Positions 1 to 14,900 of a DNA stretch of 17,732 nt are shown one piece after another. This DNA comes from an uncultured Eubacteriales bacterium (GTDB lineage Bacteria; Bacillota; Clostridia; Oscillospirales; Oscillospiraceae), in assembly GCA_900549495.1 (NCBI GenBank), contig UROL01000018.1, positions 1-17,732 on the forward strand, written 5' to 3'. The translations under genes and the position numbers were made by a program. The notes below the pieces were generated by a model that was not told where the DNA came from, searched no databases, and saw only the letters and a program-made list of their open reading frames with translations. Within the stretch, counting starts at the first letter, position 1; each line of letters starts with the position of its first letter.

Positions 1-1469
1 ATCCTACCCAGGCCCCTACAGAGAATCCTACCGAAACCCCCACCGAGAATCCTACCGAGAATCCTACCGAGACACCCACCCAGGAGCCTGGGGCAGAGCG
101 TGTCCGGGTGGAGATTCGCAGCACCCCCCGGGAGCTGCGCCTGACGGTGTACCCCGCCGATGCGGATGCCCAGTCCGCCATTCAGCCGGAGGCGGACGGC
201 TCCTATCTGCTCCTGCCCGGCGAGTATGCCTATCAGGCCTCTGCCGATGGCTACGACGATGCCCAGGGCAAATTCACCGTCCCGGCCAGCGGCCCCTATA
301 CTGTAGAGATTACCCTGAATCCCAGCGCCACCCAGCCCTCTGCTGCGGAGTCTACCCCGGCGGAGACGGAGGCGGAAACCCAGGCCACGGAGCCTCCTAC
401 CCAGGCAGCCCCGGCTACCGAGGCTCCTACGCAGGAGCCCCCTGCCACCCAGGCGGCCCCGGAGCTGACAGGAACAGAGGAGCTGGTTCAGTTCCTGGCC
501 CTGCTGTCTGAGGACGTTTCCCAGCCCTCCTCCGGCCTACAGCCCCCTTACTATGTGGTGTTTAAGATTACCCGGGACAATATGCTAAAGGGGGACATCC
601 TGGGCTGGATTGGCGTCCATGTGTATGCCGATGGCAACTTCTCCTTCTTCAATGCCTCCGGAATTGAGGATTTCAGCATCCCTGTGGAGCCCACCGAGCC
701 TGTCGAGACTGAGCCAGAGGTGGATTACTTCGGCAGCGGCTACACCTACTCCCAGATTCAGGAGATGAAGAAGGAGCAGGAGCAGAAAATCAAGGATTTG
801 GACATCCAGCTGAAGCTGGCCCAGTCCGAGCTGAAGATTATGCAGAAGGAGCTGAGCGACGGCAATATCTATGCAGAGCAGGACGGCAAGGTTATCTCCC
901 TGCTGACTGAGGAAGAGGCCAAGCTGAAATCGCAGCCCATTATCAAGCTCTCCAGCGGCGGCGGCTACTATATCGATGCCACCCTCAGTGAGCTGGAGCG
1001 GGATTTGGTGAAGGTGGGGCAGGAGGTAACCGTGAACTCCTGGGACACCGGCATGACCTATACCGGCACAGTGGTCTCCATCAGCGACGTGCCCTCCTCC
1101 CGCAACAGCTACAACGGAAACAACAACCCCAATGCCTCCAGCTACCCCTTCCGGGTCTTTGTGGACGAAAGTGCCGACCTACAGGCGGGCAACTATGTCA
1201 ACGTGCAGTATTCCTCCGCCGAGCAGAGCGGCATCTATTTGGAGAAGCCCTTCCTGCGTACCGAGGACGGACAAAGCGTGGTCTATGCCCGGGGAGAGGA
1301 CGGCCTGCTGGAGCGGCGTGTGGTCACCGTGGGCAAGTCCATGGGCGGCTACTATGTGGAGATTAAGGACGGCCTGACCGAAGACGATATGGTTGCCTTC
1401 CCCTATGGCAAGAATGTGAAGCCCGGCGTTCCCACCGAAGAGGGCGACTATTCGGATATGTACAATTAA
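1..1469 (+). CDS. MacA/HlyD-like membrane fusion (adaptor) protein, 5' end outside window
   Basis: The frame is open at the left edge (first full codon at base 3), so the N-terminal anchor and first half are missing. In order one sees: Pro/Thr/Glu repeats (PTEN-type), a PEGA-like beta segment (about bases 108-325; motif LLLPGEY..ASADGY), a second Thr/Pro/Ala-rich linker, an unrecognised globular stretch (about 470-690), a charged coiled-coil helix (about 745-860), the returning half of a lipoyl-like domain (YAEQDGKV) and a beta-barrel/membrane-proximal region ending in ..GDYSDMYN. In MacAB-type systems such adaptors couple an FtsX-type permease to export of peptides or lipids; the substrate here is unknown. 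The permease gene starts 15 nt after the stop, so the two are surely co-transcribed. The long insertion at what should be the distal tip of the hairpin is unusual. Family call is firm; function is inferred. Confidence 0.8.
   Translation, partial: PTQAPTENPTETPTENPTENPTETPTQEPGAERVRVEIRSTPRELRLTVYPADADAQSAIQPEADGSYLLLPGEYAYQASADGYDDAQGKFTVPASGPYTVEITLNPSATQPSAAESTPAETEAETQATEPPTQAAPATEAPTQEPPATQAAPELTGTEELVQFLALLSEDVSQPSSGLQPPYYVVFKITRDNMLKGDILGWIGVHVYADGNFSFFNASGIEDFSIPVEPTEPVETEPEVDYFGSGYTYSQIQEMKKEQEQKIKDLDIQLKLAQSELKIMQKELSDGNIYAEQDGKVISLLTEEEAKLKSQPIIKLSSGGGYYIDATLSELERDLVKVGQEVTVNSWDTGMTYTGTVVSISDVPSSRNSYNGNNNPNASSYPFRVFVDESADLQAGNYVNVQYSSAEQSGIYLEKPFLRTEDGQSVVYARGEDGLLERRVVTVGKSMGGYYVEIKDGLTEDDMVAFPYGKNVKPGVPTEEGDYSDMYN
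3..90 (+). repeat. In-frame 12-nt repeats encoding PTEN/PTET
   Basis: Short direct repeats of the unit CCTACCGAGAAT: an exact copy at 51-62, a near copy at 63-74 and degenerate copies from base 3 on. They stay in the frame of the adaptor gene and code for Pro-Thr-Glu-Asn/Thr. Such arrays encode flexible, wall-spanning linkers and tend to change copy number. The array continues past the left edge. Confidence 0.7.
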
Positions 1470-1484: not shown

Positions 1485-2738
1485 ATGTTTGAAAATGTAC
1501 GGCTCGCCTTCCAGGGCGTTTGGAGCCACAAGATGCGCAGTATGCTTACCATGCTTGGCATCATCATCGGCATTGCTGCCATTATTACCATCGTCTCCAC
1601 CATCAAGGGAACCAATGAACAGATTAAGGAAAACCTGATTGGTGCCGGCAACAACATTGTGACGGTTCAGCTGAACCAGAATGGCTACCAATTCGATGCC
1701 AGCTGGGACAAGGCTCCCTCCACGGTCCGCCCCATCACCGAGCAGACCCGGCAGGAGCTGGAGAAGCTGGACGGCGTCCGGGAGGTATCCCTGTTCCGTT
1801 CCCGCAGCTATGCCGATTCTGCCTTCTACCAGAACACCCAGTTTGTTGGCAGCATCTATGGCGTTGATTCCCATTTTTTCTCTGCCAGTGGCTACCAGGT
1901 GAAGCTGGGGCGGGGCTTTACCCCATCGGATTACCAGAATTGCCGCAAGGTTGCCCTTGTAGATGCCAATGCCATCTCAATTCTGTCCCTGGGGCAGAAC
2001 CCCGTTGGCCAGGTCATTGAGCTGCAGGGGGACGTATACACCATCATCGGTGTGGTGGCCCTGTCCCAGGAGTTTACCCCCACCATCAATTCCATGCAGG
2101 ATTATCAGATGTATGTGGGCAACTCCTCCGGTGTCATCTATATTCCGGACAGCGTGTGGCCGGTGGCCTATGGATTTGACGAGCCCCAGAATGTGGCCAT
2201 CAAGGTTTCCAGCACCGACGAGATGACCACCGTGGGCAAGAAAGCCGCAGACCTGCTCACCGAGCGCCAGATTGTGGGCACCGACACCGGCTTTGACTAC
2301 CGCAGTCTGGACATGCTGGAGCAGGCCCAGCAGCTGCAAAAAATGAGCCAGGCCACCAATACCCAGCTGATTTGGATTGCCAGCATCTCCCTGCTGGTGG
2401 GCGGCATCGGCGTGATGAATATCATGCTGGTGTCCGTTACGGAGCGCACCGCTGAAATCGGTCTGAAAAAGGCCATCGGAGCCAAGAAACGCAGAATCCT
2501 GATGCAGTTTCTCACCGAGGCTGCCGTGCTCACCAGCCTGGGCGGCGTCATCGGCGTGGCCACCGGCATCGGCCTGGCCGAACTGATTTCCAAGATGATG
2601 CAGATACCGGTTGCCATCAGCGTCCCGGCCATTGCCATCAGCGTGGCCTTCTCCACCCTGATTGGTGTGGTTTTCGGTCTGCTCCCTGCCACCCAGGCGG
2701 CAAACCTGAACCCCATCGAGGCGTTGAGAAGAGTATAA
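1485..2738 (+). CDS. MacB/FtsX-like ABC transporter permease
   Basis: 417 residues. The N-terminus (MFENVRLAFQGVWSHKMRSM) leads into one membrane helix at about residues 20-42 (MLTMLGIIIGIAAIITIVST), followed by a large extracytoplasmic MacB-type core domain (about 43-285) and a C-terminal FtsX domain with three membrane helices from about residue 300, including the typical GGIGVMNIMLVSVTERTAEIG and GLLPATQAANLNPIEALRRV ending. This is the four-helix topology of MacB permeases, but without the N-terminal ATPase of MacB itself, so a separate ATPase is needed. None lies in the window; it is presumably upstream of the adaptor. The ribosome binding site GGAGGGA at 1471-1477 fixes the start. A terminator follows directly. 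Likely exports a peptide, lipid or toxic compound together with the adaptor. Confidence 0.9.
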   Translation: MFENVRLAFQGVWSHKMRSMLTMLGIIIGIAAIITIVSTIKGTNEQIKENLIGAGNNIVTVQLNQNGYQFDASWDKAPSTVRPITEQTRQELEKLDGVREVSLFRSRSYADSAFYQNTQFVGSIYGVDSHFFSASGYQVKLGRGFTPSDYQNCRKVALVDANAISILSLGQNPVGQVIELQGDVYTIIGVVALSQEFTPTINSMQDYQMYVGNSSGVIYIPDSVWPVAYGFDEPQNVAIKVSSTDEMTTVGKKAADLLTERQIVGTDTGFDYRSLDMLEQAQQLQKMSQATNTQLIWIASISLLVGGIGVMNIMLVSVTERTAEIGLKKAIGAKKRRILMQFLTEAAVLTSLGGVIGVATGIGLAELISKMMQIPVAISVPAIAISVAFSTLIGVVFGLLPATQAANLNPIEALRRV

Positions 2739-2747
2739 TCCCAACCC

Positions 2748-2780
2748 CAAGCGCAGTCTTTATGGCTGCGCTTGTTTTTA
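2748..2780 (+). terminator. Intrinsic terminator after the permease gene
   Basis: Perfect 9-bp stem CAAGCGCAG (2748-2756) / CTGCGCTTG (2766-2774) with a 9-nt loop, followed by TTTTTA. It lies 10 nt after the permease stop codon and separates the export genes from the next operon. Confidence 0.85.
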
Positions 2781-2784
2781 TTGA

Positions 2785-2813
2785 TTGTATTTTTCGGGGA
2801 ATTGTGATAAAAT
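2785..2813 (+). promoter_or_regulatory. Sigma-A-type promoter of the LRR lipoprotein operon
   Basis: TTGTAT (2785-2790), a 17-nt spacer, then TAAAAT (2808-2813) preceded by TG at 2805-2806 (extended -10). Transcription would start near 2820, about 30 nt before the start codon at 2852, right after the terminator of the previous operon. Confidence 0.65.
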
Positions 2814-2851
2814 ATATAGGTATACGTGTATCAAAACGGAGGCATTTATTG

Positions 2852-4339
2852 ATGAAATTCCTTGCAAAATTCGTTCCGGCGGCGTGCCTGGTTGGATTGC
2901 TGCTCTGTGGCTGCGATGTGGGCCCCGGGGCTGTGGAGACAACGGAGGCTGCTAAAATTGAAAGCATCTCCATGGTGGTGGACGAACAGTCCATCCTGGA
3001 GCTGGAAAAGAACTACCCCGATTTGAAGCAGGCCAATCTCACCGGCAGCGAGTGCTATCAGGCCATCGCCGCCTATGCGGCCCGGAATCCCCAGGTGCAG
3101 GTGACCTATCTGGTTCGCCTGGGCACCATGGGAGCTGCCCCGGATGCCGAGAGCCTGGATTTGGGCCCGGGGGAGTATGAGTATCCGCTGCTGCTCAGCA
3201 ATCTGCGCTACCTGCCCCGGCTGCAAACCGTAACCCTGCGGGATACGGCGCTGGAAATCACCGAGCTTCAGGCCCTTCAGCAGGCCTATCCCGGGGTGCA
3301 CTTTGTATGCGGCCTGAATTTCTGCGGCGTTGCCTGCGACGGCGAGACCCAGACCCTGGATTTGTCCGGTTGCAATCCGGAGGAGGTGCTGGCCAATGCC
3401 TCCCTGCTCTCGTCCCTGCCGAAGCTGACGGACATTCTGCTTATGACCTCGGAGGATTCCACTGCCTATACCCTGGAGCAGGTGGCAGAGCTTCAGCGCT
3501 TCGCCCCGGCGGCGCTGCTGCATTTCTCCTTTGATTTGTTTGGCCAGCGGGTCTCCACCACCGACCAGGAAATCACCTACGCCAATAAATACATCGGCAA
3601 CCAGGAGGGAGCCGTGGATACCCTGCGTACAGCCCTGTCCGTCCTGCGGGGATGCCAGCGGTTTGTGCTGGACAACTGCCACTTTACCAACGAGGATTTG
3701 GCGGAAATCCGGGAGGAATTCCGGGGCACCACCAAGGTAGTCTGGCGGGTTTGGTTCGGCAAGGGCGGCTGCCTGACAGACCGGACGGTAATCCGCCATG
3801 TGTATAATCTGTACGACTCCAACAGCGCCAACCTCATCTACTGCGAGGATGCAGAGTTCCTGGATTTTGGGCACAATGAGCTGCTGCGGCAGTGCGATTT
3901 CGTGGCGGGGATGCCCAAGCTCCGGGCGGTGATTCTCTCCGGCTCCATGATTTCCGACTTGACCCCCTTCCAGAATTGTCAGAATCTGGAATTTTTGGAG
4001 GTGGCCTACTGCGGCTATCTGGAGGATATTTCCCCCTTGGCTGCCTGCACCAGCCTGGAGCGGCTGAACATCGCCTATACCAAGGTTTCGGATTTGTCCC
4101 CCCTGGACCAGCTGAATTTGCAGGTGCTGGTGGATGCCCGCTCCAAAACCGACGAAGCAGAGCGGGCTCGGTTTGACGACCTGCACCCCGACTGCATCAC
4201 CCAGCACACCGGCGATGCCAAGGACGACCAGCCCTATGGCTACCCCTGGCGGTACGAGCAGAACGGCGATGCCAACGAGTACTACGCCCTGCTGAAAGAG
4301 AAATTCGGCTACCCCAACCCAACGGATACCCTGTATTGA
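2852..4339 (+). CDS. Leucine-rich-repeat lipoprotein
   Basis: 495 residues from the ATG at 2852, chosen because ACGGAGG lies at 2837-2843 and a signal peptide starts there; the frame is open further upstream, into the terminator and promoter, which is not believable as coding. The N-terminus is a lipoprotein signal (MKFLAKFVPAACLVGLLLCGC) with the modified cysteine probably C21. Two regions resemble leucine-rich repeats: about residues 113-150 (NLRYLPRLQTVTLRDTALEI) and about 360-430 (DLTPFQNCQNLEFLEVAYC, DISPLAACTSLERLNIAYT, DLSPLDQLNLQVLVD). The middle part is poorly structured by eye. It is anchored outside the membrane and probably binds protein or polysaccharide; the partner is unknown. 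It is the first gene of an apparent four-gene operon with a HAD phosphatase, a MoxR ATPase and a VWA protein. Confidence 0.85.
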   Translation: MKFLAKFVPAACLVGLLLCGCDVGPGAVETTEAAKIESISMVVDEQSILELEKNYPDLKQANLTGSECYQAIAAYAARNPQVQVTYLVRLGTMGAAPDAESLDLGPGEYEYPLLLSNLRYLPRLQTVTLRDTALEITELQALQQAYPGVHFVCGLNFCGVACDGETQTLDLSGCNPEEVLANASLLSSLPKLTDILLMTSEDSTAYTLEQVAELQRFAPAALLHFSFDLFGQRVSTTDQEITYANKYIGNQEGAVDTLRTALSVLRGCQRFVLDNCHFTNEDLAEIREEFRGTTKVVWRVWFGKGGCLTDRTVIRHVYNLYDSNSANLIYCEDAEFLDFGHNELLRQCDFVAGMPKLRAVILSGSMISDLTPFQNCQNLEFLEVAYCGYLEDISPLAACTSLERLNIAYTKVSDLSPLDQLNLQVLVDARSKTDEAERARFDDLHPDCITQHTGDAKDDQPYGYPWRYEQNGDANEYYALLKEKFGYPNPTDTLY

Positions 4340-7341: not shown

Positions 7342-7392
7342 ATCCCCAGCAATGAAAGCCCCCGCATTCGGGCTGAAAAGGAGCGAATGAAA

Positions 7393-8361
7393 ATGAAAAA
7401 GATGATTTCCTTGGTTTTGGCTGCTGCAATGGTGCTGGGGATGGCCTCCGCCGTCACCGCCCGGGCAGAGGAAAAGACCTATACCGTGGGCATTTGCCAG
7501 CTGGTGCAGCATGCGGCTTTGGATGCCGCTACCCAGGGCTTTATGGATGCCCTGACCGAGAAGCTGGGGGACAATGTGAAGATCGACTTGCAGAACGCCC
7601 AGGGCGAGTCCACCACCTGCTCCACCATCGTCACCGGCTTTGTGGCCAACGAATACGATTTGATTATGGCCAACGCCACCCCGGCCCTGCTGGCAGCGGT
7701 GGCGGCTACCGATACCATTCCCATTTTGGGTACCTCTGTGACCGATTACGCCACGGCTCTGGCCATTGACGACATGGATGCCTCCGTGGGCACCGGTATC
7801 AATGTATCCGGCACCTCCGACGGCGTTCCCGCACAGCTGTATGCCGATACGCTTCTGGAGCTGGTGCCCGATGCCAAGAACGTGGCAATCCTGTATTGCT
7901 CCTCGGAGCCGAACTCCGTGCTTCAGGCGCAGCAGTTCGCAGCTTGCATGGACGAAAAGGGAGTCAAAACCCGGGTCTATACCTTCACCGATTCCAACGA
8001 CATCCAGGCAGTGGTCACCACCGCTGTGGAGGATGTGGATGCCATGTACATCCCCACCGACAATACCGCCGCTTCCAATATGACCATCATTTCCAATGTG
8101 TGCGCCGGTGCGAATCTGCCTGTGATTTGCGGCGAGGAGGGAATGTGCGGCGCCGGTGGTTTGGCTACGGTTTCCATCAGCTACTATGATATCGGCCATG
8201 TCTGCGGCGAGATGGCCTATGACGTTCTGGTAAACGGCGCAGATGTCTCCACCATGCCCATCGGCTATGCGGCCTCCCCGGTAAAGAAGTACAATCCCGA
8301 CTATGCCCAGGCCATTGGCTTTGAGATGCCCCAGGGCTACGAGGCCATCGAAACCCAGTAA
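7393..8361 (+). CDS. ABC importer substrate-binding protein (ABC_sub_bind / TrpX-like family)
   Basis: 322 residues from the ATG at 7393. AAGGAG at 7378-7383 lies 9 nt before this ATG but only 3 nt before the in-frame ATG at 7387, so 7393 is preferred; the difference is two residues. A signal peptide (MKKMISLVLAAAMVLGMASA) ends near ARA-EE, followed by the mature start EKTYTVGICQLVQHAALDAA, typical of the family that includes streptococcal TrpX (two-lobed Rossmann-like binding protein). Family members bind aromatic amino acids or related small molecules; the ligand here is unproven. Unusually there is no lipobox cysteine, so it may be released or held by the uncleaved signal rather than lipid-anchored. 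Permease and ATPase genes follow. Confidence 0.88.
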   Translation: MKKMISLVLAAAMVLGMASAVTARAEEKTYTVGICQLVQHAALDAATQGFMDALTEKLGDNVKIDLQNAQGESTTCSTIVTGFVANEYDLIMANATPALLAAVAATDTIPILGTSVTDYATALAIDDMDASVGTGINVSGTSDGVPAQLYADTLLELVPDAKNVAILYCSSEPNSVLQAQQFAACMDEKGVKTRVYTFTDSNDIQAVVTTAVEDVDAMYIPTDNTAASNMTIISNVCAGANLPVICGEEGMCGAGGLATVSISYYDIGHVCGEMAYDVLVNGADVSTMPIGYAASPVKKYNPDYAQAIGFEMPQGYEAIETQ

Positions 8362-8378
8362 CCCATCCGGGAACGACA

Positions 8379-8422
8379 GCAGAATATTCTCCCGGCAAAA
8401 CCCTTGCCGGGGGATTTTCTGC
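8379..8422 (+). promoter_or_regulatory. Long hairpin between binding-protein and permease genes
   Basis: An inner stem at 8388-8398 / 8404-8414 (core CCCGGCAA / TTGCCGGG, 5-nt loop) is capped below by a second pairing GCAGAA (8379-8384) / TTCTGC (8417-8422), with TTTT just after the inner stem. It starts 17 nt after the binding-protein stop and ends 14 nt before the permease ribosome binding site. In binding-protein importers such hairpins usually act as leaky terminators or 3' stabilisers that give more binding protein than permease; this role is inferred. Confidence 0.6.
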
Positions 8423-8450
8423 AAACAGAAAATAACAGGAGGTCAATTCC

Positions 8451-9443
8451 ATGCTGGATGCTCTCATGGTATCTATCCCCGAATACTTTGCTTCTCTGAA
8501 ATTTACTGCGCTGCTTCGTGCCCTCCCTGGGGGCGTGGCCCAGGGCCTTATCTGGGGCGTACTGGCTCTGGGCGTGTTCCTCACCTTCCGGATGCTGGGC
8601 GTGTCCGACCTGACGGTGGACGGAAGCATGGCCACCGGCGGCGCTGTCTGCATCATGCTGGTGCTGGCGGGGGTCAATCCCCAGTTGGCGCTGCTGGCCT
8701 CCTTCCTGGCCGGTATGGCGGCGGGAGTTATTACCGGCTTCCTGCACACCAAGCTGGGTATCCCGGATATTCTGGCAGGTATTCTCACCCAGATTTCCCT
8801 GTACTCCATCAATCTGAACATTATGGGCAAGGCTAACCAGGCGGTAAACGTCAACAAGGTCGCCTTCCTCTTTTCCTCCAATGCCAAGCTGCTGACCCGC
8901 ACCATCTGGATTGTGCTGGGGGTATGCGTGGCGCTGGTGGTGGCACTATACCTGTATCTGGGCACGGAGCACGGCTCCGCTCTGCGGGCCACCGGCATCA
9001 ACGGCAATATGGCCCGGGCCCAGGGCATCAACACCAATCGGATGAAGGTCATCGGTCTGGCGCTGAGCAACGGCCTGGTGGCTCTGTCCGGGGGCATCAT
9101 GTCCCAGTATCAGGGCTTTGCCGATGTGAAAATGGGCACCGGTGCCATTGTGATTGGTCTGGCTGCCGTAATCATCGGCGAGGTGCTGGGCGAGGCTCTG
9201 GTGGGCAGACATATGAACTTCATGGTTCGTCTGGCCTTTGTGGTGCTGGGCAGCGTGATTTACTATGTGGTGTATGTATTTGTCCTCTGGCTGAAATTCC
9301 CGCCGGATGATATGAAGCTCCTCACCGCTGTTGTTGTGGCTATTTTCCTGGCAGTGCCCAATTTGCGGGCAGCAAAGCGGAATTCCTTTGGCCGGATTGC
9401 CAAGCTGAATGCCAAGGCCGCCAGACAGAGTCAGGAGGGATAA
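8451..9443 (+). CDS. ABC importer permease (BPD_transp_2 / LivH-like, TrpY-like)
   Basis: 330 residues; AGGAGG at 8437-8442, 8 nt before the ATG. Very hydrophobic, with about eight to nine membrane helices. The stretch GLIWGVLALGVFLTFRMLGV followed by SDLTVDGSMATGG, and GTEHGSALRATGINGNMARAQGI with NTNRMKVIGLALSNGLVALSGG, are hallmark segments of branched-chain-type permeases that pair with ABC_sub_bind proteins. The second is the cytoplasmic coupling loop to the ATPase. The C-terminus is basic and cytoplasmic (RNSFGRIAKLNAKAARQSQEG). It forms the membrane pore with the neighbouring ATPase, whose start codon lies 3 nt after this stop codon. Confidence 0.92.
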   Translation: MLDALMVSIPEYFASLKFTALLRALPGGVAQGLIWGVLALGVFLTFRMLGVSDLTVDGSMATGGAVCIMLVLAGVNPQLALLASFLAGMAAGVITGFLHTKLGIPDILAGILTQISLYSINLNIMGKANQAVNVNKVAFLFSSNAKLLTRTIWIVLGVCVALVVALYLYLGTEHGSALRATGINGNMARAQGINTNRMKVIGLALSNGLVALSGGIMSQYQGFADVKMGTGAIVIGLAAVIIGEVLGEALVGRHMNFMVRLAFVVLGSVIYYVVYVFVLWLKFPPDDMKLLTAVVVAIFLAVPNLRAAKRNSFGRIAKLNAKAARQSQEG

Positions 9444-9446
9444 GCC

Positions 9447-10244
9447 ATGCTGAAAATCAAGAACGTATACAAGACCTTCAATGCCGGCACCATCAACGAA
9501 AAGAAGGCACTGAAAAATTTGAACCTGACCCTGCAAACCGGTGAGTTCTGCACCGTCATCGGAGGCAACGGTGCCGGTAAGTCCACCATGCTCAATGCCG
9601 TGTCCGGGGTGTGGCCGGTGGACTCCGGGGCTATCCTTATTGATGGGCAGGATATCTCCGGCCTGTGCGAATACAAGCGTGCCCCCTTCCTGGGCCGGGT
9701 CTTTCAGGACCCCATGAACGGCACTGCCGCCGATATGCAGATTATTGAGAATTTGGCCCTGGCCGCCCGCCGGGGGGAGAGACGCCGGGTGTTCCGCTGG
9801 GGCGTACCCAAGGCGGACACGGAAAAATACCGGGATATGCTCCGCACCCTGGATTTGGGCCTGGAGGACCGGCTTACCACCAAGGTGGGGCTGCTCTCCG
9901 GCGGCCAGCGCCAGGCACTGACATTGCTGATGGCTACCTTGCAGAAGCCCCAGCTGCTGCTTCTTGATGAACACACCGCCGCCCTGGATCCCAAAACCGC
10001 TTCCAAGGTGCTGGATGCCACCCAGCGCATTGTGGAGCAGGATCACCTGACCACCCTGATGATTACCCATAATATGCGCGATGCCATTGCCTATGGCAAT
10101 CGCCTGGTGATGATGTATGACGGCCACATTGTGGTGGACGTCTCCGGCGAGGAGAAAAAACGCCTCACCGTGGAGCAGCTCCTGGAGCTGTTCAGCAAGG
10201 CCTCCGGTTCGGACGAGGCCGACGACAAATTGATTCTCTCCTAA
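9447..10244 (+). CDS. ABC importer ATP-binding protein (TrpZ-like)
   Basis: 265 residues; AGGAGG at 9433-9438 within the end of the permease gene. All ABC ATPase motifs are intact: Walker A GGNGAGKST (39-47, K45), signature LSGGQRQA (150-157), Walker B LLLLDEH with D174/E175, and H-loop H208 (MITHNM). The residue after the catalytic Glu is His in LDEHTAAL, common in the family that serves ABC_sub_bind importers. It powers the permease encoded directly upstream. The operon ends at the hairpin at 10257-10298. Confidence 0.94.
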   Translation: MLKIKNVYKTFNAGTINEKKALKNLNLTLQTGEFCTVIGGNGAGKSTMLNAVSGVWPVDSGAILIDGQDISGLCEYKRAPFLGRVFQDPMNGTAADMQIIENLALAARRGERRRVFRWGVPKADTEKYRDMLRTLDLGLEDRLTTKVGLLSGGQRQALTLLMATLQKPQLLLLDEHTAALDPKTASKVLDATQRIVEQDHLTTLMITHNMRDAIAYGNRLVMMYDGHIVVDVSGEEKKRLTVEQLLELFSKASGSDEADDKLILS

Positions 10245-10256
10245 TTTCCCCCCAAA

Positions 10257-10298
10257 AATGAAAATCCCAGCCAGGATTGCCCGGCTGGGATTTTCATT
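10257..10298. terminator. Bidirectional terminator between convergent genes
   Basis: Perfect 16-bp stem 10257-10272 / 10283-10298 (AAAATCCCAGCC / GGCTGGGATTTT core) with a 10-nt loop. T-rich on the 3' side of both strands, it lies 12 nt after the importer ATPase stop codon and just after the end of the convergent DUF975 gene at 10307, so it can serve both. Confidence 0.9.
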
Positions 10299-12209: not shown

Positions 12210-12299
12210 GAAAAGCGGGTTAAAGGCGAATGTGCTGCCCGTTGATACGACAATTTTCCATTGCAATTTGATAAAACTGCTGAAATGGCATTGCCCTCC

Positions 12300-12328
12300 T
12301 TGACAAAGCCGGTTTTTTCTTTGATAAT
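12300..12328 (+). promoter_or_regulatory. Sigma-A promoter, apparently the displaced promoter of the dehydrogenase gene
   Basis: Perfect TTGACA (12300-12305), 17-nt spacer, GATAAT (12323-12328). It ends 7 nt before the left inverted repeat of the PHP cassette. If 12335-13502 is removed, transcription would start at the junction and run into the ribosome binding site of the dehydrogenase at 13526-13532, so this appears to be the original promoter of that gene. In its present place it reads into the cassette. Confidence 0.7.
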
Positions 12329-12330
12329 AT

Positions 12331-12334
12331 GATG
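12331..12334. repeat. Candidate target-site duplication, left copy (GATG)
   Basis: GATG directly outside the left end of the cassette, matched by GATG at 13503-13506 directly outside the right end. Four bases are short, so chance cannot be excluded, but the position is exactly where a duplication is expected. Confidence 0.45.
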
Positions 12335-12335
12335 A

Positions 12336-12356
12336 ATAAAACCAGATAGGGAGAAA
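12336..12356 (+). repeat. Left terminal inverted repeat of the cassette
   Basis: 21 bases beginning ATAAAACC and ending GATAGGGAGAAA; inverted copy at 13481-13501 with one mismatch (A/T at 12344). Weaker similarity goes on inward: 11 of 15 positions after a one-base shift (12364-12378 against the complement of 13460-13474). Confidence 0.8.
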
Positions 12357-12403
12357 TCTCAAATATATGTTATTGCAGAATTAACATTTTTCAGCACTCA
12401 TGA

Positions 12404-12432
12404 TTGCGCTTCTTGTAACGGTAATGTATAAT
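12404..12432 (+). promoter_or_regulatory. Promoter of the PHP gene inside the cassette
   Basis: TTGCGC (12404-12409), 17-nt spacer, perfect TATAAT (12427-12432). A start near 12440 gives a leader of about 60 nt. A 6-bp hairpin ATCTCA (12467-12472) / TGAGAT (12482-12487) lies just before the GGAGG at 12489-12493. The rest of the stretch 12210-12501 has no gene that I can support. Confidence 0.65.
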
Positions 12433-12501
12433 ACATCCAAACACACTGGCAAATCGGGATTTTACGATCTCACGAGTGAACTGAGATTGGAGGAATGAAT
12501 A

Positions 12502-13293
12502 ATGAGAGACGTACATGTACACTTTTTACATGGAAATCCTATAGGCTATAATATTGATTTTTTTGAGGGATTCATTAAAGTTGCACAAGCTGCAGGACTT
12601 GATGAGATATACATGCTTGAGCATACTCATCAATTTACTGAATTTGAGAAAGTATACGAACCAATAAAGTCCTATAACGATTTTCAGAATAACTGGATAA
12701 CAAAAAGAATGAACGGTTCAATAGACGAGTATATTAGCTTTATTAAAAGAGTACGAAATATTAAGTACCCTGTAAAAGTGAAGTTCGGTCTTGAAGTCTG
12801 TTATATTCCTGAAACTGCTGATGTTCTGGCAGATATTCTTGATAAATATGATTTTCATTTTCTTACAGGTGCTGTACATTGGATTGACGGTTGGGGATTT
12901 GACCATATGGGGCAAAAGGAGATTTGGGAAAGCAAAAACATAGAAGAAGTATATAAAAGATATTATGATATTATGTTCCAGTTATGTGAGAGCGGTTTAT
13001 TTAACGGACTTGCCCATCCTGACTCAATCAAATGTTTTGGCTATAAACCGAACATTGATTTAACAGAATATTATAATAAATTGGCTGTGTTGTTAAATAA
13101 ACATAGTATGTATGCCGAAAACAGCGGAGGATTACACTTAAATTATAGTTCTGATATTGAACTTGGTTTAAATCCTCAATTATTATCTATTCTGACAAAA
13201 AACAACGTGCAAATTGAGACTGCTTCCGATGCACACAAACAAAGTGATGTTGGTGCTAATATCATGGAACTTGAAAATATGCTCAAAGATTAG
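12502..13293 (+). CDS. PHP-domain metal-dependent phosphoesterase (histidinol-phosphatase-like), foreign base composition
   Basis: 263 residues; GGAGG at 12489-12493, 8 nt before the ATG. PHP motifs in order: H5-x-H7 (RDVHVHF), E40-H41 (MLEHTH), an acidic residue in FGLEVCYIP, His in GAVHW, His in GLAHPDSIKCFGY, and D-x-H in ASDAHKQSD. These are the ligands of the trinuclear metal site, so the enzyme should be active. The length and motif pattern resemble HisJ/HisK-type histidinol phosphatases, but no his gene is nearby, so the substrate may be another phosphomonoester. It is the only gene of an AT-rich cassette bounded by inverted repeats. Codons are A/T-ending, unlike all other genes here, which shows recent transfer. 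Alternative: a nucleotide- or sugar-phosphate phosphatase acting in resistance or competition; there is no direct evidence for that. Confidence 0.85.
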   Translation: MRDVHVHFLHGNPIGYNIDFFEGFIKVAQAAGLDEIYMLEHTHQFTEFEKVYEPIKSYNDFQNNWITKRMNGSIDEYISFIKRVRNIKYPVKVKFGLEVCYIPETADVLADILDKYDFHFLTGAVHWIDGWGFDHMGQKEIWESKNIEEVYKRYYDIMFQLCESGLFNGLAHPDSIKCFGYKPNIDLTEYYNKLAVLLNKHSMYAENSGGLHLNYSSDIELGLNPQLLSILTKNNVQIETASDAHKQSDVGANIMELENMLKD

Positions 13294-13311
13294 TAAGCAT
13301 ATAGAATATTT

Positions 13312-13433
13312 TAGCTTATCGAAATTAAGCTACCGTGGAAATGTTCAATTTGGTGGAGCGACAACTTCCGGTTTGTCGGGCTGCTTGATTGTCCACAAAA
13401 ATAGCGAGCATCGGATTGTGTCAACCACAATCC
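13312..13433 (+). other. Cluster of inverted repeats downstream of the PHP gene
   Basis: Between the PHP stop and the right end of the cassette lie three hairpins: TAGCTTA (13312-13318) / TAAGCTA (13326-13332); CGACAA (13359-13364) / TTGTCG (13373-13378), itself enclosed by GTGGA (13353-13357) / TCCAC (13392-13396); and GGATTGTG (13413-13420) / CACAATCC (13426-13433). None has a T-run right after it, so they are not ordinary terminators. They could be a structured 3' untranslated region, a small RNA, or DNA structures used in transposition. Confidence 0.45.
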
Positions 13434-13480
13434 AAATTCATATCCGAGAGCTGAGCGGACTTAAATAGCAAATAGACTTT

Positions 13481-13501
13481 TTTCTCCCTATCAGGTTTTA
13501 T
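13481..13501 (-). repeat. Right terminal inverted repeat of the cassette
   Basis: 21 bases beginning TTTCTCCCTATC and ending GGTTTTAT, the inverted copy of 12336-12356 with one mismatch. A run of T extends inward (13478-13483). A weak outward promoter TAGACT (13473-13478)-N17-TTTTAT (13496-13501), 4 of 6 matches in each box, might drive the dehydrogenase from here. Confidence 0.8.
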
Positions 13502-13502
13502 C

Positions 13503-13506
13503 GATG
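13503..13506. repeat. Candidate target-site duplication, right copy (GATG)
   Basis: GATG next to the right end of the cassette, equal to 12331-12334. It also creates an upstream ATG at 13504 in frame with the dehydrogenase, which lacks a ribosome binding site. Confidence 0.45.
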
Positions 13507-13539
13507 GAACACAAAACAAAAAACACGGAGGTTTTACTT

Positions 13540-14586
13540 ATGAACGGCAACATGCGTGTGGCAATTATGGAAGGAATCGGCAAGATGGGCTTCACCCAGC
13601 GTCCCATCCCCACTCCCAAAGAGGATGAGGTTCTGGTTAAGCTGGAATATGTAGGCATCTGCGGTTCTGATATGCATTATTACGAGACGGGTGCCATTGG
13701 GGACTTTGTGGTGGAGCCCCCCTTCGTCCTGGGCCATGAGCCCGGCGGCACAGTGGTGGAGGTGGGCAGTAAGGTGACCCATCTGAAGGTTGGCGACCGG
13801 GTGGCTCTGGAGCCGGGGAAGACCTGCGGCCATTGCCGGTTTTGCCGGGAGGGCAAATACAACCTTTGCCCGGATGTGGTGTTCTTTGCCACACCCCCGG
13901 TGGACGGCGTGTTCCAGGAGTATGTGGCCCACCAGGCGGACCTGTGCTTTAAGCTGCCCGACAATGTAAGCACCCTGGAGGGGGCGCTTATCGAGCCTTT
14001 GGCCGTGGGCTTCCATGCTGCCATTCAGGGGGATGCCCACCTGGGCCAGAAGGCTGTGGTGATGGGTGCCGGCTGCATTGGCCTGGTGAGCCTGATGGCG
14101 CTGAAAGCCCGGGGTGTCCAGGAGGTCTATGTGGTGGACGTAATGGACAAGCGGCTGGACAAGGCCTTGGAGCTGGGCGCTACCGCAGTCATCAACGGAA
14201 AGAAAGAGGATGTGGTGGCTCGGCTGAACCAGCTTACCGGCGGCATGGGTACGGATTTGGCCATCGACACCGCAGGCAGCGAGTTCACCGTCCGCCAGGC
14301 CATTATGGCCGCCGCCAAGGGCAGCACCATCGTCCTGGTGGGCTACAGCCGGACAGGCGAGATGAATATGCCCACCGACTTCATCCTGAACAAGGAGCTG
14401 ACGTTGAAGTCCGTCTTCCGCTACCGCCACATCTACCCCATTGCCATTGAGGCGGTGGCCTCCGGCAAGGTGAATCTGAAGGGCATCGTCTCCAATATCT
14501 TCCCCCTGTCGGATATCCAGAACGCCATGGACGAGAGCATCCGCAACAAGGCGGATATTGTCAAATCCGTAATTAAAATCGACTGA
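13540..14586 (+). CDS. Zinc-dependent sorbitol/xylitol-type dehydrogenase (MDR family)
   Basis: 348 residues from the ATG at 13540, chosen because ACGGAGG lies at 13526-13532; the in-frame ATG at 13504 has none. Catalytic zinc ligands C41 (GICGSD), H66-E67 (GHEPGG) and E152 (IEPLAVG) are present, as are the four structural zinc cysteines C96, C99, C102, C110. The Rossmann motif is GAGCIG (176-181), and D200 at the end of the second strand (VYVVDV) indicates NAD rather than NADP. The segment SVFRYRHIYPIAIEAVASGK is typical of sorbitol dehydrogenases. It should oxidise a polyol such as sorbitol or xylitol to the ketose in the cytoplasm. It stands alone, without a polyol transporter or kinase nearby. 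Its original promoter seems to have been split off by the PHP cassette. Confidence 0.9.
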   Translation: MNGNMRVAIMEGIGKMGFTQRPIPTPKEDEVLVKLEYVGICGSDMHYYETGAIGDFVVEPPFVLGHEPGGTVVEVGSKVTHLKVGDRVALEPGKTCGHCRFCREGKYNLCPDVVFFATPPVDGVFQEYVAHQADLCFKLPDNVSTLEGALIEPLAVGFHAAIQGDAHLGQKAVVMGAGCIGLVSLMALKARGVQEVYVVDVMDKRLDKALELGATAVINGKKEDVVARLNQLTGGMGTDLAIDTAGSEFTVRQAIMAAAKGSTIVLVGYSRTGEMNMPTDFILNKELTLKSVFRYRHIYPIAIEAVASGKVNLKGIVSNIFPLSDIQNAMDESIRNKADIVKSVIKID

Positions 14587-14651: not shown

Positions 14652-14900
14652 TTAACGGTGGAGGTATTTTTGCCTGGTGGCCATTCCGCCCCGAATGTGG
14701 CGCTCCTGCTTGTTTTTGTCCAGGACGGCCCTGGCCTGGGCGTAAAGCTGGGCATTGCAGCGCCGCAGCCGAAAGGTGATATCCTTGTGGACGGTGGATT
14801 TGGAGATGCCGAAGTGTTGTGCAGCAGAGCGCACAGTGGCACCGGTTTCAACAATGTACACAGCCAGTTCACAGGCTCGCTTCTCAATTTGATCTGTCAT
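14652..14900 (-). CDS. spoIIID: Sporulation transcription factor SpoIIID
   Basis: 82 residues; GGAGG 7 nt before the ATG on the minus strand. The sequence matches SpoIIID in length and layout: ACELAVYIVETGATVRSAAQ, helix-turn-helix HFGISKSTVHKDITFRL (about residues 28-46), and the basic C-terminal HIRGGMATRQKYLHR that contacts the minor groove (Bacillus subtilis has RHLRGGEATKLKY in that place). SpoIIID acts in the mother cell, switching genes of the sigma-E regulon on or off before sigma-K. Its presence is good evidence that the host forms spores. In B. subtilis it is transcribed by sigma-E and a fitting promoter is seen upstream. Very confident. Confidence 0.96.
   Translation of the reverse strand: MTDQIEKRACELAVYIVETGATVRSAAQHFGISKSTVHKDITFRLRRCNAQLYAQARAVLDKNKQERHIRGGMATRQKYLHR

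Follow-up and report, generated by a model that had tools for sequence, protein, structure and literature searches.

Why does a single AT-rich gene, framed by matched inverted ends, stand between a promoter-like site and the ribosome-binding site (RBS) of an alcohol dehydrogenase (ADH) gene in an uncultured Eubacteriales bacterium? The segment in question occupies positions 12335-13502 of a 17,732-nt stretch of contig UROL01000018.1 (hereinafter designated the window) and encodes a PHP phosphoesterase. An original prediction, made from the letters alone, had taken it for a transposase-less cassette bounded by the ends of an insertion sequence (IS). Our best reading, held with moderate confidence, is a mobile-insertion-cassette-like unit with exchangeable cargo, new in its cargo and in a 3′ non-coding module shared with two other loci. 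More specifically, we consider it reasonably probable that the segment arrived by horizontal transfer as a one-gene cassette lacking a transposase, and that it lies in the 5′ leader of the host ADH gene.

Ends and probable insertion site of the segment

12300..12328, + strand: promoter-like site TTGACA-17-GATAAT, 11/12 consensus positions, immediately left of the segment
12331..12334, no strand: GATG, left copy, possible 4-bp target duplication (read directly)
12335..12356, + strand: left inverted arm, A + 21 nt (repeat search)
13481..13502, – strand: right inverted arm, 21 nt + C (repeat search)
13503..13506, no strand: GATG, right copy (read directly)
13540..14586, + strand: host zinc-type ADH, RBS GGAGG at 13527-13531, right of the segment

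The strongest argument for insertion of the whole arm-to-arm segment is the order of promoter, leader, RBS and gene that its removal restores. The promoter-like site ends two bases ahead of the left GATG, and the ADH RBS and ADH start lie 21 and 34 bases, respectively, past the right GATG. When the segment and one GATG are removed in silico, the promoter-like site, a leader of ~33 nt, the RBS and the ADH gene follow one another at normal distances, as expected if the segment had been inserted at this position.

The arms proper (12336-12356 and 13481-13501) are identical at 20 of 21 positions, bearing out the predicted 21-bp inverted ends. They form the only such pair in the window with arm starts no more than 3 kb apart, and when the window was simulated 200 times with a local Markov model, a comparable 20/21 inverted repeat arose once. 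No third arm-like place is present in the window at up to 3 mismatches, and none of 200 shuffles contained two matches. A weaker similarity said to continue inward did not hold up, as 335 of 1000 shuffles scored at least as high as the next 60 nt. Copies of GATG do stand outside both ends, as had been noted; read as a target duplication they support insertion, but weakly, with a direct repeat of at least 4 bases abutting 141 of 20000 random end pairs at exact ends and 815 of 20000 with a one-base slide.

The base composition, described earlier as about one third GC inside and 60% outside, is 34.6% GC in the segment versus 59.1% in each 1-kb flank. At third codon positions (GC3) the PHP gene has a value of 0.277 versus 0.725-0.805 in 11 neighbouring genes. 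The arms contain 7 G or C in 21 positions and read as A-run, stem and T-run. Of 64 listed window frames of at least 80 aa, the 16 main proteins and frame 13214-13468 were scanned for domains: Pfam detected no transposase or recombinase domain in the 16 main proteins, and frame 13214-13468 gave no match in domain scans. The segment is bounded by inverted repeats and carries a passenger gene, with no transposase domain inside or nearby among these 16 proteins, as in a mobile insertion cassette.

The PHP phosphoesterase and its leader

12357..12501, + strand: PHP-gene leader, AT-rich, including TATAAT hexamer at 12427-12432 and RBS GGAGG
12502..13293, + strand: PHP phosphoesterase, 263 aa, HisK/HisPPase-like (sequence and fold comparison)

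The PHP reading frame is complete, is preceded by a GGAGG RBS and is the sole gene recognised inside the segment, in agreement with the original prediction. Its product has the PHP fold and the conserved metal-site-type residues of the PHP superfamily, and shares fold and conserved residues with HisK/HisPPase of the PHP family (3dcp, 2yxo), but misses the curated cut-off of histidinol-phosphatase family NF005596 (140.3 of 202 bits). The window protein itself has no Pfam match at 0.001; a 93% relative (P0001) matches at 2.6e-9. This PHP-fold metallophosphatase probably acts on a small phosphorylated metabolite as its presumed substrate. Relatives number 819 proteins, the named ones from Lachnospiraceae, and some lie on contigs >200 kb; in many cases, then, the gene is ordinary cargo of a chromosome.

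The consensus scan listed no promoter-like site on the + strand of the PHP leader (12357-12501). Since the cargo lies on the same strand as the host site, the host promoter could read it, and read-through from that promoter may be how the cargo is expressed.

A 3′ non-coding module shared with two other loci

13385..13470, + strand: core of the 3′ non-coding module, holding hairpin GGATTGTG..CACAATCC (blastn, pairwise shuffles)
2445-3142 of a Subdoligranulum contig deposited as plasmid (hereinafter designated L048): perfect 18-bp inverted arms enclosing an AT-rich acetyltransferase gene and the 3′ module

The original prediction had called for a search for further copies of the ends with other cargo. 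The searched collections contained no other instance of the end repeat itself, which is one half of the outcome that the prediction had named as counting against it; a unit with different cargo was found through a common 3′ module. The end pattern AAAACCNGATAGGGAGAA has 3 matches in viral_contigs, the 20-base end pattern has one match in genome_contigs (an Anaerolineae contig) and two 15-base end patterns match 17 and 25 stretches in viral_contigs, all judged chance. An end-pair check of 47 loci besides the window gave an inward-facing pair within 6 kb in two, L032 and L033, both rejected with 6+6 and 5+3 mismatches of 22. The right-end 51-mer found 2 weak records among plasmids and 4 among phages, and the two of these six that were inspected (L007 and L008) were chance-like. 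The whole segment has no blastn match in plasmids and 2 weak matches in phages. The PHP protein has no match in viral_contigs, by single sequence or by alignment, and none by tblastn in phages; tblastn in plasmids gave 7 records, all with <60% identity.

Both non-coding parts of the segment were searched by blastn at E ≤10, returning 5 and 2 plasmid records and 13 and 5 phage records. The 3′ part matches OY725877.1 of Subdoligranulum variabile, the L048 contig, at E 7, and MT838454.1, a human-faecal scaffold of the phage set (hereinafter designated L049), at E 8. Both E-values are at chance level alone, and the two records were chosen after the list was seen, for matching the same stretch and coming from gut sources; the remaining rows resembled chance. 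The matches gain meaning from three observations. The two records match each other at the module (75% over 123 nt); the module lies directly 3′ of an AT-rich acetyltransferase gene in both relatives (GC 0.358 and 0.364); and, for every pair of the three module cores, none of 2000 shuffles reaches the score. The two acetyltransferases do not align with each other by BLASTP, that of L049 being cut at its start. Because L049 begins inside this gene, only its right side is readable.

By eye, the GGATTGTG/CACAATCC hairpin is matched in L048 by a hairpin whose changes are paired, and has no match in L049. Just upstream of the core, the window is weakly similar to L048 (score equalled or exceeded by 20 of 2000 shuffles) and not similar to L049 (by 1293 of 2000). 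No further convincing copy of the module was found in 71 sequences, made up of the window and 70 loci with some overlap (724,629 bases in all), where the next rows have E ≥4.2. When the L048 and L049 modules were used as queries in the collections they came from, each retrieved only itself. Rfam has no match in the window or in the segment, and one sub-threshold microRNA match in L049. A related unit with different cargo exists, recognisable by a common 3′ module and not by its ends, and the original prediction is partly supported.

Alternative origins of the segment

Several observations weigh against the cassette reading. No second copy of the ends beyond chance was found in genome_contigs or viral_contigs, and exact end patterns revealed no cognate IS in either. 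No empty site was seen, in a search that did not reach the host's genomes; the ADH has no match in viral_contigs, so none is to be had there. At the arms the base composition does not change abruptly: the adjoining 100 bases have GC of 0.39 and 0.46. The AT-rich interval that fits best, 12242-13544, extends past the arms on both sides, as the adjacent host intergenic DNA is AT-rich too. The promoter scan gave 8 sites in 1801 bases, compared with 4.7 (sd 2.4) in shuffles, and another site with 11/12 consensus positions lies inside the PHP gene; the promoter is therefore plausible rather than shown. Past the core, the tail shows no significant similarity to L048 or L049 (score equalled or exceeded by 1722 and 1851 of 2000 shuffles, respectively). 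No direct repeat was seen outside the L048 arms, which differ in sequence from the window arms. Finally, among ADH relatives the organism is named for one alone, Blautia (81%), so that few names stand behind the host family.

The relative in L048 opens another account of the arms, namely that a palindrome was already at the site, either a leader hairpin or a bidirectional intrinsic terminator, and that the insert went into its loop and parted it into the two arms; the element would then be the inter-arm part only. One L048 arm reads AAAAAACCTCCTGCCGGG, the other is its exact complement at a distance of 662 nt, and the unit is flanked by convergent frames, a lipid-kinase-family gene on one side and an unassigned 180-aa frame on the other. 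The record (266,993 bases) contains 39 short-loop hairpins with arms of at least 14 and at most one mismatch, 16 of which, loosely defined, begin with an A-run as the L048 arms do. It has 3 perfect inverted repeats of at least 16 with at least 200 nt between the arms and arm starts at most 3000 apart, and only the pair around the acetyltransferase unit encloses AT-rich DNA (GC 0.406). With A-run hairpins so frequent there, the L048 arms look like a bidirectional terminator split by an insert, and since they are terminator-like and of other sequence, the window arms may not be IS ends. The window arms share the A-run, stem and T-run form, for which we keep this account, and the window itself holds such a hairpin at 10257-10298. 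However, the window genes on either side are co-directional, and the arms would set a terminator between the promoter-like site and its gene; the low GC of the arms is insert-like, although nearby host intergenic DNA is AT-rich as well; and GATG outside the arms would be a coincidence. On balance we judge this origin unlikely, if worth keeping in view.

We think it rather improbable that the segment is an old acquisition by ordinary recombination, not a mobile unit, in which terminator-like flanks of the gene give the arms. The commonness of PHP relatives, some on long contigs, and the absence of the end repeat elsewhere would suit such a history, but it leaves unexplained why the insert lies between promoter and RBS, why its matched ends are flanked by a direct repeat, and why a common 3′ module stands behind other lone AT-rich genes. 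It is very improbable that the module is an independent interspersed repeat, like a miniature inverted-repeat transposable element (MITE) or BOX, uninformative about cargo mobility: three copies are known, with no further convincing one in the 71 sequences, but in 3 of 3 cases the module stands directly behind a same-strand AT-rich accessory gene. Of the cassette as first proposed, the AT-rich foreign composition, the single cargo gene, the inverted ends and the lack of a recognised transposase all stand; the view of the arms as IS ends is weakened by the terminator-like arms of the relative.

If the cassette reading is correct, a cassette with a PHP-fold metallophosphatase and a structured 3′ tail would have been acquired horizontally and would have entered the host ADH 5′ leader, on the same strand and right behind the promoter, in a gut Oscillospiraceae-like bacterium. 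Insertion would have made the 4-bp duplication, and movement would have occurred in trans, through an enzyme encoded elsewhere. A broader proposal, which we regard as speculative, is a cassette family in gut Clostridia, transposase-less, one-gene and defined by a common structured 3′ module, not by ends, which would carry unrelated cargo (a PHP phosphatase, different acetyltransferases), use the palindromes of terminators or leaders next to active genes as insertion sites and be moved by some mobilising enzyme. Such a family would be a vehicle moving single metabolic or modifying genes between gut Clostridia families without machinery of its own, and would deposit single genes beside host promoters. 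The module at 13385-13470 offers a concrete search key, by which family size, cargo and mobilising enzyme are testable in existing gut genomes.

Relation to known systems

Mobile insertion cassettes are defined as having inverted repeats at their ends, no transposase gene nearby and usually a target duplication, and MIC231 is reported to be mobilised in trans by IS231A (PMC3913671). With such cassettes (MIC231 of Bacillus cereus, mic-qnrD and mic-qnrS2), the segment has in common inverted repeats, a passenger gene, no transposase and a possible short target duplication. It differs from them in having no known parent IS with these ends, in its PHP phosphatase cargo and in a structured 3′ module common to units whose arms, where readable, differ.

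Like integron gene cassettes, the segment has one gene and a structured 3′ part, apparently exchangeable cargo and a place downstream of a promoter-like site; unlike them, it is a single insertion with no integrase seen. Integron attC core sites read RYYYAAC and GTTRRRY. Neither occurs on the + strand of the window, L048 or L049 modules, which disfavours an integron cassette. MITEs with terminator-like repeats, such as BOX, RUP and SPRITE of pneumococcus, are small, transposase-less, palindromic and intergenic like the segment (in part after PMC10969869), whereas the segment bears a complete protein gene. Among titles and abstract openings surveyed for chosen terms, neither a cassette with a PHP gene nor a 3′ module of this kind came up.

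Other features of the window

14652-14900, – strand: SpoIIID, 82 aa, NCBIfam equivalog (112.9 vs cut-off 111.5 bits)
7387-10244: ABC importer operon, consecutive genes for a substrate-binding protein (TrpX-like, under the cut-off), a permease and an ATPase

The host of the insertion is likely to belong to a gut Oscillospiraceae-like family, as the named relatives of the left neighbour gene (2 of 120 listed) are Faecousia and Oscillospiraceae. SpoIIID is encoded in the window, so a spore-forming lineage is likely. PADLOC and PHROGs searches gave no matches. The hairpin at 10257-10298, with a 19-bp stem and a 4-nt loop, lies between convergent genes and is probably a bidirectional terminator; it is the only one in the window with arms of at least 12, at most one mismatch and a loop of 3-12. 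At the left edge of the window (3-86), a 36-nt repeat occurs in overlapping copies in 12-base steps and encodes PTE-rich repeats. Among the records inspected, the human-faecal phage scaffold L008 encodes at 6-2276 a reverse transcriptase (PF00078) beside a DUF6273 protein, possibly a diversity-generating retroelement.
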